From positions 1,705,766 through 1,769,765 of the forward strand of contig LT599017.1 of assembly GCA_900079765.1 (NCBI GenBank): a stretch of DNA of 64,000 bases. Direction: 5' to 3'. Each line of letters starts with the position of its first letter. Positions within the stretch are counted from its first letter, which is position 1. Below are positions 23,765 through 32,021 of this stretch, one piece after another. The notes under the pieces are model-generated. The model did no database searches and was not told where the DNA came from. It saw nothing but the letters and a program-made list of their open reading frames with translations. Source of the DNA: an uncultured Eubacteriales bacterium (lineage in GTDB: Bacteria > Bacillota > Clostridia > Oscillospirales > Oscillospiraceae). The translations under genes were made by a program, and so were the position numbers.

Positions 23765-23792
23765 GGAGCTATAATTGAATAGGGTTTGAATG

Positions 23793-23952
23793 ACGACACC
23801 GGGAGAGGCCGCTTTGACGAGCGGAGCCGAAGGGGAGCGCAAAATCTCTCAGGCAAAAGGACCGGCGTCTGACAAGACTCCGAAGAGCCGCGGATTCCGC
23901 GGCACCGAAGAAGCAATCCCGCTCCAGGGGGAGAATCTTTCAGGTCTATGAC
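23793..23952 (+). ncRNA. tandem glycine riboswitch
   Basis: The first aptamer shows GGGAGAGGCC (23801), GCCGAAGGGG and CTCTCAGGCAAAAGGAC. The second shows CTCCGAAGAG, CACCGAAGAAGCAA and TTTCAGGTCTATGAC. These are the conserved blocks of the two glycine aptamers joined by a short linker. An intrinsic terminator follows, and gcvT begins 31 bp after it, so glycine binding should prevent termination and turn on degradation of glycine. Confidence 0.93.
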
Positions 23953-25511: not shown

Positions 25512-26828
25512 ATGGGTACATATATACCGTCCACCGCCGAGCAGAGGGAGGAGATGCTGCGGGCGGTGGGGATCTCTTCGCTGGAGGAGCTCTATGATGT
25601 GATTCCCGGCACCATCCGGCTAAGCGGCAAAGACGCCGCCCCTGGCATGAGTGAGCTGGAAGCCGCCGCCGCCCTGCGCCGCATGGCGGCGAAAAACCGT
25701 GCGTTTGGCAGCATCTTCCGGGGCGCGGGGGCCTACGACCACTACATCCCCTCCGTCGTCAAGCGCGTTACCGCCAAGGAGGAATTCGTCACCGCCTACA
25801 CCCCCTATCAGGCTGAGATCAGCCAGGGCGTGCTTCAGTCCATCTTCGAGTACCAGACTATGATCTGTGCCCTTACCGGCATGGACGCGTCCAACGCCTC
25901 CATTTACGATGGGGCCTCGGCCGCGGGCGAGGCTGCCGCCATGTGCCGGGAGCGCAAGCGTGAGCGTATTTTGATCTCGGGCGCGGCCAACCCCATGGTC
26001 ATCCAGACCATCCTGACCTACTGCGAAGGGGTCAACGCCGCCGCAGAGGTCGTCCCTGTCAAGGACGGGAAAACCGATATGGACGCACTGAAGACCATGC
26101 TGAACGATACCGATGCGGGGGTCTACCTCCAGCAGCCCAACTACTTTGGTATGCTGGAGGACGCCGAGGCGGTGGGTGAGCTGGCCCACACTGCCGGGGC
26201 CAAGTTCATCATGGGGATCAACCCTATAGCCGCCGCGATTTTAAGGACGCCCCGGGACTGTGGGGCGGACATCGCCGTGGGCGAGGGGCAGCCGCTGGGC
26301 ATGCCCCTGGGCTTTGGCGGGCCCTACCTGGGCTTTATGGCGACCACCCAGGAGTTTCAGCGCAGGCTGCCCGGCAGGATCGTGGGCGAGACTACGGACG
26401 ACCGGGGCAGCCGCTGTTTCGTTCTCACCCTCCAGGCCCGGGAACAGCACATCCGGCGGGAGAAGGCCTCCTCCAACGTCTGCACCAACCAAGCCCTTTG
26501 CGCAATGACCGCGGCGGTCTATTTGGCCGCGATGGGTCCCGAGGGGCTGCGCCAGGCAGCTACACATAGCTATTCCAAAGCCCACTACCTGGCGGGAGAA
26601 CTTGGAAAGGTAAAAGGCTTTACGCAAATGAACCAGGGCGACTTTTTTCATGAGTTCGTCATGACCTGTCCCGTCCCGGCGGGCGAGCTGCTGGCTCGGC
26701 TGGAGAGGGAGGACATTCTGGGCGGGCTCCCGGTGGAGGGCGGCATCCTGTGGTGCTGTACCGAGAAGAACAGCAGGGCCGATATGGACCGTGTCGTGGC
26801 AATCGCGAAGGAGGTGGCGGGCGTATGA
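25512..26828 (+). CDS. gcvPA: glycine dehydrogenase (decarboxylating) subunit 1
   Basis: 438 residues, the N-terminal half of P protein in organisms with the split form. It begins with YIPSTAEQREEMLRAVG and includes the conserved YDGASAAGEAA and FGGPYLGFMAT stretches. It forms a heterotetramer with GcvPB; the PLP lysine is on the other subunit. It starts 3 bp after gcvH and overlaps gcvPB by ATGA. Confidence 0.96.
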   Translation: MGTYIPSTAEQREEMLRAVGISSLEELYDVIPGTIRLSGKDAAPGMSELEAAAALRRMAAKNRAFGSIFRGAGAYDHYIPSVVKRVTAKEEFVTAYTPYQAEISQGVLQSIFEYQTMICALTGMDASNASIYDGASAAGEAAAMCRERKRERILISGAANPMVIQTILTYCEGVNAAAEVVPVKDGKTDMDALKTMLNDTDAGVYLQQPNYFGMLEDAEAVGELAHTAGAKFIMGINPIAAAILRTPRDCGADIAVGEGQPLGMPLGFGGPYLGFMATTQEFQRRLPGRIVGETTDDRGSRCFVLTLQAREQHIRREKASSNVCTNQALCAMTAAVYLAAMGPEGLRQAATHSYSKAHYLAGELGKVKGFTQMNQGDFFHEFVMTCPVPAGELLARLEREDILGGLPVEGGILWCCTEKNSRADMDRVVAIAKEVAGV

Positions 26829-28261
26829 AACTGATTTTTGAGCGCAGCGTCCCGGGCCGCGCCTGCACCCTGCTGCCTGAGTGCGATGTGCCGGTTTCCT
26901 TTCTGCCAGAGCATATGAAAAGGGAAGAGGCTTTACAATTGCCTGAGCTCTCTGAGATCGATCTCTCCCGCCACTATACCGAGCTTGCAAAGCAGGTCTT
27001 TGGTGTGAACGACGGGTTCTATCCCCTGGGCTCCTGTACTATGAAGTATAACCCCGCCGTCAACGAGGAGATGGCCGCCCTGCCCGGCTTTGCGGGAGTT
27101 CATCCCCTCCAGGAGCCCCACACCGTCCAGGGCTGCCTGGAGGTGCTGGCGACGGCGGAGAAGCTGCTGTGCAAAGTCACCGGGATGGACGCCATGACCT
27201 TCCAGCCCGCGGCGGGTGCCCACGGCGAGTATACCGGTATGCTCATCATCAAGGCATACCATAAGGCCCGGGGCGACTTGGGCCGCACCAAGGTCATCGT
27301 CCCTGACTCAGCCCATGGTACCAACCCGGCTACCGCCGCCATGTGCGGTTTCCAGGTGGTGAACGTCCCCTCGGGGAGTGACGGCTGCGTGGACCTGGAC
27401 GCCCTGCGTGCCGCCGTCGGCCCGGACACGGCGGGGCTGATGCTGACGAATCCCAACACTTTGGGTCTCTTCGACAAGAACATCCTGGAGATCACCAGGA
27501 TCATCCATGACGCCGGGGGCCTCAACTATTACGACGGGGCCAACCTCAACGCTGTTATGGGGATGGCCCGTCCCGGGGACATGGGCTTTGACGTGGTGCA
27601 CCTTAACCTCCACAAGACCTTCTCTACCCCCCATGGGGGTGGCGGCCCCGGCTCAGGCGCGGTGGGGGTCAAGGCGTTCCTGGCCCGCCACCTGCCCAAG
27701 TTCCATGCCGCGGAGGGGCCGGAGGGGTTCTGCTTTGAGAAGCCGGAGGCCACCATCGGCAGCGTGAAGGAGTTCTACGGCAACTTCCTGGTGGTGGTGC
27801 GGGCCCTGTGCTATATGCTCGTTTTGGGTGAGGCGGGCCTGCGGGATGCGTCCCAGACCGCGGTGCTGAACGCAAACTATATGCGCGTCAGGCTGGCGCC
27901 TTACTGCCCAATGGCGTCGCAGGATATTTGCATGCACGAGTTCGTTATGACCCTGGCCGACCTGAAGCGGGAGACCGGCGTGTCGGCCAAGGACGTGGCG
28001 AAGGCCATGCTGGACTATGGGATGCATGCCCCCACCATGTACTTCCCCCTCATCGTAGAGGAAGCTCTCATGGTGGAGCCCACCGAGACAGAGAGCAAGG
28101 AGACCCTGGACTGGGCCTGCGACTGCATCATAGAGATTTTGAAGAGGGCAAAGGAGGACCCCGCGGCGGTCCAGGCCGCCCCCGTCAGCACCCCCATCGG
28201 CAGGCCCGACGAGGTCACCGCCGCCCGCAGCCCCAAGCTTCGGTGCGTATTTGGAGGATGA
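26825..28261 (+). CDS. gcvPB: glycine dehydrogenase (decarboxylating) subunit 2
   Basis: 478 residues from the ATG overlapping the gcvPA stop; a longer frame back to 26750 is inside gcvPA and is rejected. It carries the PLP lysine Lys264 in HLNLHKTFSTPHGGGGPG and the GSCTMKYNP and DSAHGTNPA motifs. Decarboxylates glycine and passes aminomethyl to GcvH. Confidence 0.97.
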   Translation: MKLIFERSVPGRACTLLPECDVPVSFLPEHMKREEALQLPELSEIDLSRHYTELAKQVFGVNDGFYPLGSCTMKYNPAVNEEMAALPGFAGVHPLQEPHTVQGCLEVLATAEKLLCKVTGMDAMTFQPAAGAHGEYTGMLIIKAYHKARGDLGRTKVIVPDSAHGTNPATAAMCGFQVVNVPSGSDGCVDLDALRAAVGPDTAGLMLTNPNTLGLFDKNILEITRIIHDAGGLNYYDGANLNAVMGMARPGDMGFDVVHLNLHKTFSTPHGGGGPGSGAVGVKAFLARHLPKFHAAEGPEGFCFEKPEATIGSVKEFYGNFLVVVRALCYMLVLGEAGLRDASQTAVLNANYMRVRLAPYCPMASQDICMHEFVMTLADLKRETGVSAKDVAKAMLDYGMHAPTMYFPLIVEEALMVEPTETESKETLDWACDCIIEILKRAKEDPAAVQAAPVSTPIGRPDEVTAARSPKLRCVFGG

Positions 28262-29652: not shown

Positions 29653-31143
29653 TTATTCGGGACGCTCAAGGCGCACCAACCTGGCCTTGACACCCTCCAG
29701 GAAGTCCTTGTCGTGCTCCACCAGAAGCAAAGTGGGATGGTAGTCTTTGATCAAGGCCTCGATCTGCATCCGGGAAAAGAGGTCGATATAATTGAGCGGC
29801 TCGTCCCAGATGTAAAGGTGAGCCGCCTCACAGAGGCTGCGGGCCAAGAGGACTTTCTTCTTCTGCCCGGCGCTGAACTCGGCCATGTCCTTTTCAAACT
29901 GGGCCCGGGAGAAGTCCAGCTTGCGCAGGATGGTTTTAAAGAGGCTCTCGTCGATCTTGCACTCCCGGGCGTACGCGGCAAGGTCACCCCGTAGAAAGGA
30001 CGCGTCCTGAGGCACCAGCGAGAGGATGAGGCCGGAGGCCAAGGTCAGCGTGCCGGTATGGCGGAGGTCATGTCCGGCGATCAGCTTTAAAAGGCTGGAT
30101 TTTCCCGCGCCGTTGCGGCCCGTGAGGGAGACCCGCTCCCCTTGCATGACTGTAAAGGAGATCGGCTTGCAGAGTGGCCCGTCCCCATAGTCCACGGCCA
30201 AATTAATGGCCTCCACCAGCCGTTTCTGTGGGTGGGCGAGGGGGTGGAGCTTTAGGCTCTCCGTCAGCTCAATATTTTTGAGGAGGCCGGACTTTTCCTC
30301 CACGGCGTCCTGCCGCCGGGCCTCCACGGACTTGGCCCGTTTCATTACCTTGGCGGCCTTGTGGCCGACGTAGCCCCGGTCGGGCTTCAGGCCTGAATTA
30401 CGGGTGGCGTACTTGGCGCTCTCCGCCTGGTCGGACCAGGAGGAGTTACGTTTTGCCGCGGCGTCCAAGCGGGAGATATCCTGCCTGAGCTTTTCATTTT
30501 CGGCACGCTCCCAAGCGTCCTGCCGGGCCTTGTTCTCCCACCAGGAGGAGAAATTTCCCTGCCGGACCTGGATGTCCAGCTTGTTGATGGACAGGATATG
30601 GTCGGTGCAGCCGTCCAGAAAGGCCCGGTCATGGGATACCAGGATGAAACCCTTCTTCCGGGCGAGGTACTCGCACACTACACGGCGGCCCTCCAGGTCT
30701 AAGTGATTGGTTGGCTCGTCGATGAGGAGAAAGCTGCCGGGGTGCAGAAAGAGGGCGGCCAGGAGCACCTTGGTCTTTTCCCCGCCCGAGAGGGTGGCGT
30801 AGGGGCGGTAGAGGACTGCGTCGTCCACCTCAAGAGCCGCCAGCTCCTTATAGATCTGCCAGGACTCCAGCTCCGGGTCCAGGCTCTCCAGCACGTCGAT
30901 GGTGTTTCGCTCCTGTTCGGGGACGGGGAACGGGAAATAGTCAAAGCTTACAGAGGCAGAGATGCTGCCCCGGTACTCATACTCGCCCTGGAGAAGCCGC
31001 AGAAAGGTGGTCTTGCCCCGGCCATTGCGGCCCACAAGGCCCAGCCGCCAGTCGGTATCGATTTGAAAGGAGACGTTTTCAAAGACGTTGTCGCTGCTGC
31101 CATCGTACCCAAAGGTGAGGCTTGATACGTTAATGAGGGACAT
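29653..31143 (-). CDS. ABC-F ATPase, Lsa/CplR-type ribosomal protection protein
   Basis: 496 residues, two ABC domains, no membrane segments. Domain 1: Walker A GRNGRGKTT (about 37-45), LSGGEKTKV and LLIDEPTNHLD. Domain 2: Walker A GRNGAGKSS, AEFSAGQKKKVLLA and a variant Walker B YIWDEPLNYID. The long charged linker between them is the antibiotic-resistance determinant of this class. The opening MSLINVSSLTFGYDG fits the clostridial Lsa/CplR group that protects ribosomes from pleuromutilin, lincosamide and streptogramin A. The ATG at 31143 is taken; a longer frame reads through an attenuator leader. Confidence 0.85.
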   Translation of the reverse strand: MSLINVSSLTFGYDGSSDNVFENVSFQIDTDWRLGLVGRNGRGKTTFLRLLQGEYEYRGSISASVSFDYFPFPVPEQERNTIDVLESLDPELESWQIYKELAALEVDDAVLYRPYATLSGGEKTKVLLAALFLHPGSFLLIDEPTNHLDLEGRRVVCEYLARKKGFILVSHDRAFLDGCTDHILSINKLDIQVRQGNFSSWWENKARQDAWERAENEKLRQDISRLDAAAKRNSSWSDQAESAKYATRNSGLKPDRGYVGHKAAKVMKRAKSVEARRQDAVEEKSGLLKNIELTESLKLHPLAHPQKRLVEAINLAVDYGDGPLCKPISFTVMQGERVSLTGRNGAGKSSLLKLIAGHDLRHTGTLTLASGLILSLVPQDASFLRGDLAAYARECKIDESLFKTILRKLDFSRAQFEKDMAEFSAGQKKKVLLARSLCEAAHLYIWDEPLNYIDLFSRMQIEALIKDYHPTLLLVEHDKDFLEGVKARLVRLERPE

Positions 31144-31161
31144 ATAAATCACATCCAGATA

Positions 31162-31201
31162 CAAAAATGAGGCGCAGGAAAGGATAACCTCCCCGCGCCC
31201 C
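31162..31201 (-). terminator. leader terminator (attenuator) in front of the ABC-F gene
   Basis: On the minus strand GGGGCGCGGGGAGG (31201-31188) pairs with CCTTTCCTGCGCCTC (31183-31169) around a TTAT loop, followed by ATTTTTG. It lies only about 20 bases before the start codon, so read-through is required for expression. Confidence 0.75.
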
Positions 31202-31307
31202 ATTTTGGGCATAAAAGGAGGGAGGACACGCAAACCAACTTCCCGCGCGGGATACGACAAAGCGAGCGGCATTTGCCGCCTTTGTCCTATCCACAAAATG
31301 CAGAAAG

Positions 31308-31319
31308 TTATTTGCGCAT
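31308..31319 (-). CDS. three-codon leader mini-ORF (Met-Arg-Lys) of the ABC-F gene
   Basis: ATG CGC AAA TAA on the minus strand, preceded at 7 bases by GGAGG (31331-31327), close to the predicted transcript start. Genes for antibiotic-resistance ABC-F proteins are often controlled by ribosome stalling on very short upstream ORFs that shift a downstream terminator. Everything needed is present: promoter, ribosome site, mini-ORF, alternative hairpins and terminator. Confidence 0.55.
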   Translation of the reverse strand: MRK

Positions 31320-31351
31320 CTTCCCGCCTCCAATTCCTTAATATTGAGCTT

Positions 31352-31380
31352 AGTATACCCAGTTTATCCGCATTTGTCAA
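31352..31380 (-). promoter_or_regulatory. promoter of the ABC-F gene leader
   Basis: Minus strand perfect TTGACA (31380-31375), 17-bp spacer, TATACT (31357-31352). The transcript then has about 200 nt of leader before the ABC-F start codon. Confidence 0.85.
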
Positions 31381-31403: not shown

Positions 31404-32021
31404 ATGGAGAGACAGAATGGGGGTGGAGCGGTGGAACAGCGTTTCAGTTTGGGGCGGTCCGGCGGGACCCTTCTGGTACGGGATGAGGGGCCCAGGGCGG
31501 TTTTCGAGGTCGAGCTGCCGGACGACGGGCGGGGGCTATACAAGGCATACGCCCAAGGCAATGGGGGAAACCTGCTCCTGGGAACCCTGATGCCGGAGCG
31601 GGGCCGCCTGCGCCTGCGGCGGACGATGGCCATCAGTGAGCTGGAGCGGCGGGGCTGCTGGCCAGTGACGGGCGGGGAGGGGCGGCTGGAGTTTTTCTTC
31701 AACCAGAGCGGGCAGGGAAACGCCTGCGCTCCGGGCTGGAGCCGGGAGGAGAACCCTGCCCGGCTCATGGGGGAGCGGCTTTTGGTCCATGCCGCCGGGG
31801 AACTGCGAGGGACTCTCTTCCGGCGGGAGGAAGAGGGCTTTTCTCTGGCTGCGCCCATGGAGAAGGGAGGAGCCTTCCCCATGACGCCCCTCTTCTGCTT
31901 TGCCAGCCTGGAGACCCTATGCGGGCGGACCTACGCGGTTTTTCATTTTAATGGGCGCGGATATCCCATCTTCCAGAATAAAGAAAATAAGACAGGGCAT
32001 ACTGAGGGGGCAAATCAGTAA
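31404..32021 (+). CDS. conserved hypothetical protein
   Basis: About 205 residues, soluble, with no signal peptide. The segment LYKAYAQGNGGNLLLGTLMP followed by GRLRLRRTMAISELERRGCWP is a pattern I associate with uncharacterised clostridial proteins, but no domain name is known to me. The likely start is ATG 31404, or GTG 31431, which has a GGTGGAG site just upstream. It is divergent from the ABC-F gene and precedes two coat-like genes by 16 bp. Confidence 0.65.
   Translation: MERQNGGGAVEQRFSLGRSGGTLLVRDEGPRAVFEVELPDDGRGLYKAYAQGNGGNLLLGTLMPERGRLRLRRTMAISELERRGCWPVTGGEGRLEFFFNQSGQGNACAPGWSREENPARLMGERLLVHAAGELRGTLFRREEEGFSLAAPMEKGGAFPMTPLFCFASLETLCGRTYAVFHFNGRGYPIFQNKENKTGHTEGANQ

Follow-up and report, generated by a model that had tools for sequence, protein, structure and literature searches.

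Ribosome-mediated attenuation of ABC-F genes is already known from other bacteria, in the vmlR, cplR and lsaA attenuators. In Bacillus subtilis vmlR, initiation on a three-codon upstream ORF (uORF), MIN, is required, drugs that block the peptidyl transferase centre (PTC) cause stalling at initiation, and NusG pausing has been shown; MRK is a natural variant of this uORF in other Bacilli and is functional in B. subtilis, with a two-fold lower lincomycin MIC (PMC9226507). The uORF of Clostridioides difficile cplR is MRI (consensus MR[I/M]), and that of the Enterococcus faecalis lsa(A) leader has the consensus MAGN (PMC10201436).

The locus described here lies on the minus strand of a 64,000-nucleotide stretch of contig LT599017.1 (hereafter, the window) from an uncultured Eubacteriales bacterium. 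A first-pass annotation of this DNA had read the leader of an ABC-F resistance-type gene as a ribosome-mediated attenuator. The protein family, the anatomy of the leader, the conservation of mini-ORF and terminator, the pairing of the arms and the folding all fit this proposal, and its coordinates and description hold. We put the probability that the element is a ribosome-mediated transcription attenuator before a chromosomal Lsa-type ABC-F target-protection gene at roughly 0.86.

The leader has a short uORF with its Shine-Dalgarno (SD) sequence in an upstream hairpin, and an intrinsic terminator between the uORF and the gene. As in vmlR, a three-codon uORF sits in an anti-antiterminator hairpin, and the terminator precedes an ARE ABC-F gene; however, the vmlR product belongs to the ARE2 (VmlR) group whereas the window protein is Lsa, and the SD-sequestering fourth hairpin of vmlR has no evident counterpart in the window leader. 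With cplR it shares a Met-Arg tripeptide in a 5' hairpin, a 3' terminator hairpin, a PLSA-type ABC-F protein and a clostridial host, but the cplR protein is of the ARE1 group and its terminator hairpin sequesters the main SD, which the window terminator does not. The lsa(A) system has the same ABC-F family (Lsa), yet MAGN is four codons long, whereas uORFs in the window clade and among its relatives read MRK or M-x-x-x-S-C; the MAGN consensus was found neither in the window leader nor in its own clade, where MRK stands instead.

The gene and its leader

The features of the locus, in window coordinates, are as follows.

31375..31380 (-): -35 hexamer TTGACA; with the -10 hexamer, 11/12 matches to the sigma-70 consensus at a spacer of 17; relatives have a similar promoter
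31352..31357 (-): -10 hexamer TATACT, 17 nt from the -35 hexamer
31327..31331 (-): mini-ORF SD, GGAGG; anti-SD duplex of about -12 kcal/mol, 7 nt ahead of the ATG
31308..31319 (-): mini-ORF ATGCGCAAATAA (ATG CGC AAA TAA, Met-Arg-Lys-stop); same frame in the clade, in 10/10 readable leaders
31214..31331 (-): putative anti-antiterminator, a long hairpin whose middle arm pairs with the SD, start codon and downstream coda (from folding and arm matching)
31188..31221 (-): predicted antiterminator, 31221-31215 with 31194-31188 and 31211-31207 with 31200-31196 (from folding the growing transcript while the ribosome footprint was kept unpaired)
31163..31206 (-): intrinsic terminator, 31206-31164, plus a U tract (five U, to 31163); 19-bp stem, -29 kcal/mol
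31148..31156 (-): ABC-F gene SD, GGATGTGAT; 8/9 of GGAGGTGAT, -9.3 kcal/mol
29653..31143 (-): gene for an Lsa-family ABC-F ribosomal protection protein of 496 aa (from profile and structure-sequence matches)

By sequence similarity, the 496-aa protein is a full-length Lsa-family ABC-F. It scored 455 bits against the general NCBIfam profile NF000355 (cut-off 380), and 722.5 bits across 491/492 positions of the Lsa family profile NF000167, 28 bits short of the curated cut-off of 750. The ribosome-bound Lsa(A) structure 7nhk matched with 437.8 bits over residues 1-488, an alignment that takes in the motifs of two ABC domains (LSGGEK, LIDEPTNHLD, SAGQKKK and YIWDEPLNYID) and in which the interdomain linker differs solely by a three-residue gap. 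By analogy with the family, the product would confer resistance to lincosamides, streptogramin A and pleuromutilins, although, since the protein lies just under the NF000167 exception cut-off, this spectrum is not assured. The gene is present in a single copy in the genome, and the remaining ABC proteins match far more weakly.

A divergent, uncharacterised gene of about 200 aa (31414-32021, +) adjoins the ABC-F gene and does so also in the relative L160, so the gene pair may be syntenic. Elsewhere in the window, a glycine riboswitch (RF00504, 58 bits; 23790-23874, +) lies upstream of apparent glycine-cleavage genes, and a 503-aa glycine dehydrogenase-like ORF occupies 26750-28261.

The consensus promoter and the GGAGG-preceded Met-Arg-Lys ORF of the first-pass annotation are both present as listed, and the terminator, said to end about 20 bases before the start codon, has its U tract ending 19 nt ahead of the ABC-F ATG at 31143. 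We folded the RNA from the expected transcription start to the ABC-F gene. The leader had a minimum free energy of -99.2 kcal/mol, compared with -61.9 +/- 4.3 for dinucleotide shuffles (z = -8.6), none of which was equally stable (0/200). In the fold, the long hairpin 31331-31214 holds an apical hairpin as well as the SD and the mini-ORF. The terminator stem excludes the main SD, and SD sequestration is therefore not evident. This main site had been called weak, and most relatives do have a stronger one (usually -10 to -13 kcal/mol), but it is modest rather than absent. The tight control ascribed to it is only partly borne out. An Rfam search of the leader returned zero families at the gathering score; weak microRNA matches (E 0.01-4) were put down to chance.

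Conservation of the leader and the predicted switch

GGAGG followed by a three-codon ORF occurs twice in the window, against about 0.5 expected by chance, and an SD plus a three-codon ORF by itself lacks significance there. It is conservation in relatives, not this combination alone, that makes the leader significant. We sampled 300 genomes of the family, 79 of which carried the ABC-F gene at E < 1e-110, and took 80 more ABC-F loci from other Bacillota. Within the gene's own clade (SH-aLRT 99), ATG CGC AAR TAA (MRK) stood behind GGAG or GAGG in all leaders that reached far enough (10/10), and most clade leaders with the MRK frame also showed a recognisable strong promoter. The 17-mer core GGRAGATGCGCAARTAA was found in 12/400 family genomes, in every case (12/12) directly upstream of the ABC-F gene, and its reversed control in 0/400. 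The distance from terminator to ATG was 15-23 nt in 10/10 modelled MRK/MRN leaders, for which terminators were set by hand, automatic calling having missed or mischosen the hairpin in L011, L016 and L140.

The SD, AUG and coda paired into a long helix with an arm 60-130 nt downstream in 16/16 MRK/MRN leaders. Consensus folding of seven clade leaders gave no good helix alignment, the sequences being too diverged, and we therefore matched arms within each leader instead. Across the 16 leaders, own arms paired with -20.3 kcal/mol and swapped arms with -15.5, 12% of swaps being equally good; for the portion after the conserved codons, 9% of swapped arms matched the own-arm pairing. Such matching of own against other arms is a form of alignment-free covariation evidence.

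We modelled a ribosome at the AUG by keeping positions -16 to +15 unpaired in the growing transcript. With this footprint in place, 31221-31215 paired with 31194-31188 in the 5' arm of the terminator, and occupancy of that arm by upstream RNA, before its partner had been made, rose from 0.30 to 0.62. The same occupancy rose in 10/10 modelled MRK/MRN leaders, by between 0.01 (L014) and 0.67 (L011), and a control footprint changed it by at most 0.01. At equilibrium, the terminator of the window leader had a probability of 0.86 both with and without a ribosome on the AUG. The pairing alternatives proposed in the first pass are predicted in the growing transcript, where the long hairpin folds the mini-ORF away and the footprint favours the antiterminator, but the terminator is still preferred at equilibrium. 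Since this holds in both states, the model would require the switch in the window to be kinetic, through kinetic trapping or RNAP pausing. Moreover, because the SD and AUG of the mini-ORF are themselves buried in the long helix, translation would have to start before the middle arm is transcribed.

Upstream ORFs of the Lsa relatives

The commonest uORF class among Lsa relatives was M-x(1-3)-Ser-Cys(-Lys/Arg), which differs from the published lsaA MAGN. It comprised 67 loci (e.g. L070, L030, L038 and L115) and spanned Oscillospiraceae, Sporomusaceae, Desulfosporosinus, Clostridium and some Paenibacillaceae. Ser-Cys was usually encoded with TTTCTTGC or TTCCTGC. Across relatives the frames include MRNFSC, MIILSC, MDFSC, MINFSCK, MI, ME and M-stop, but the context of the start codon and the TCTTGC nucleotides further downstream are retained. 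At 28/150 loci, e.g. L015/L058 (MFIR), L023, L025, L082, L103 and L148, none of the described uORF classes could be called; some of these contigs are too short, and others may use different frames.

Leaders with shorter frames, MRK, MRN and MR among them, often retain TCTTGC-like nucleotides past the stop as remnants of the Ser-Cys motif, as in L001 (ATGCGCAAATAActttctgc), L011 and L137 (...TAActtcttgc), L140 (ATGCGCAACTAAtcctgc), L155 (ATGCGCTAAgcttcctgc) and L100 (ATGATTTAAttttcttgc). This pattern suggests that the nucleotides have been kept as an RNA pairing partner. L031 (ATGCGCAAGTAAgcctgt) is the sister of MRKFSCK and MRQFSCK leaders (ATGCGCAAGTTTTCCTGC). Close relatives that pair a long with a truncated uORF are L031 with L122 and L027; L140, L019 and L021 with L029; and L100 with L115. 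Ser-Cys-like nucleotides follow the early stop in L031, L140 and L100 (CCTGT, TCCTGC and TTCTTGC), making these natural truncation cases. In a tree of 53 proteins, the MRK/MRN label changed at least four times on supported branches, and a single clade of MRK/MRN forms was rejected (AU p 7e-62). As no root was inferred, the tree leaves the direction of change unproved; the retained out-of-frame remnants favour truncation.

The start-stop leaders of relatives are more surprising than the window leader. At about 33 Paenibacillaceae loci, an SD-placed ATG is followed at once by TAA (18), TAG (8) or TGA (7) and then by TTCTTGC, although the firm set is somewhat smaller, since L046 and L051 admit an alternative reading, ME-stop from an ATG further upstream, and an overlapping GTG start is available in the TGA cases. 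Among these loci are L049, L053, L064, L069, L071, L073, L075, L078, L080, L084, L088, L091, L101, L104, L105, L107, L110, L111 and L114. Lying about 200-245 nt ahead of the ABC-F start, these uORFs use all three stop codons, which argues for a stop as such. A GCAAGAA-like complement was present downstream in 95/100 leaders of the Ser-Cys and start-stop classes. For 24 start-stop leaders, the equilibrium probability of the terminator was 0.90 for free RNA, 0.03 with a ribosome on the AUG and 0.90 with the control; blocking of the AUG is thus predicted to abolish the terminator. In the literature available without subscription, we found neither start-stop uORFs in bacterial resistance leaders nor M-x-x-x-S-C leader peptides, an absence that is weak evidence.

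With odds slightly better than even, the Bacillota Lsa-type leaders form one large undescribed attenuator family. Starting as M-x-x-x-Ser-Cys(-Lys), its uORF would have been cut repeatedly, to MRK/MRN, then to MR/MI/ME and, in Paenibacillaceae, to a bare start-stop, with TTTCTTGC, once coding for Phe-Ser-Cys, preserved as an arm of the RNA. Antibiotic would then be sensed by the AUG alone, in a regulatory start-stop uORF of bacteria that needs no peptide to read the arrest of an initiating or a terminating ribosome.

What the leader may sense

Following the vmlR model, as the simplest interpretation, we envisage that, when no drug is present, the tripeptide frame would be translated and the ribosome released at once. 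The mini-ORF arm would then pair with the middle arm as anti-antiterminator, the terminator would fold, and transcription would end 19 nt short of the gene. A PTC blocker, expected to be a lincosamide, pleuromutilin or streptogramin A, would arrest the ribosome on the AUG or beside it, where it would cover the mini-ORF arm; the freed middle arm could capture the emerging 5' arm of the terminator, permitting read-through into the ABC-F gene, whose product would take the drug off the ribosome. Stalling on the mini-ORF is proposed here by analogy with the known attenuators, and the likely inducers (lincomycin, pleuromutilin and streptogramin A) by analogy with the family.

What the ribosome responds to could in principle be the peptide. 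Met-Arg-Lys might act as an arrest peptide, for instance with macrolides or ketolides, which stall at Arg/Lys motifs, so that a different drug class would induce; Arg is indeed common at codon 2 of Lsa leaders (MRK, MRN and MRNFSC), and the MRK variant altered vmlR induction (PMC9226507). We nevertheless think this improbable, because the peptide is not conserved: the frame varies freely among relatives whereas TCTTGC downstream and the surroundings of the start codon stay, the start-stop frames offer no peptide to sense, and the Arg/Lys-X-Arg/Lys motif is missing from MRK. The same lack of conservation weighs against a ribosome pause at the Arg or Lys codon under a shortage of charged tRNA. 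The layout does resemble that of biosynthetic attenuators bearing codons of the regulated amino acid, but the gene downstream serves ABC-F target protection rather than biosynthesis, and Arg and Lys codons vary across the family and are missing from start-stop leaders. Amino-acid limitation therefore seems hardly credible as the signal.

The uORF might also be dispensable, with regulation being mainly translational or the locus consisting of a plain terminator beside a chance mini-ORF. At equilibrium the terminator is stable whichever state is modelled, and chance alone should place about 0.5 three-codon ORFs behind GGAGG in the window, as would suit such an explanation. Yet the ORF and its SD are kept in every readable clade leader and are specific to the ABC-F gene, and a main SD outside the terminator stem, with no evident sequestration, argues against translational attenuation; we regard both versions as very unlikely.

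The variation of the Lsa leaders instead suggests that the sensor is an arrested initiating ribosome at the start codon and that the peptide hardly matters; sensing of initiation is supported by a peptide that is variable, shrinks and is finally absent. Since MRK induced less well than MIN in the published vmlR work, codons 2 and 3 may matter somewhat.

With this leader, an Lsa-type intrinsic resistance gene on a Bacillota chromosome is probably inducible by drugs. On a wider view, the ever shorter uORFs of the relatives amount to a natural experiment on what such attenuators sense. Should the AUG-stop leaders prove responsive to drug, the initiating ribosome would be the sensor, and any drug that freezes initiation would be predicted to induce, whatever the peptide.
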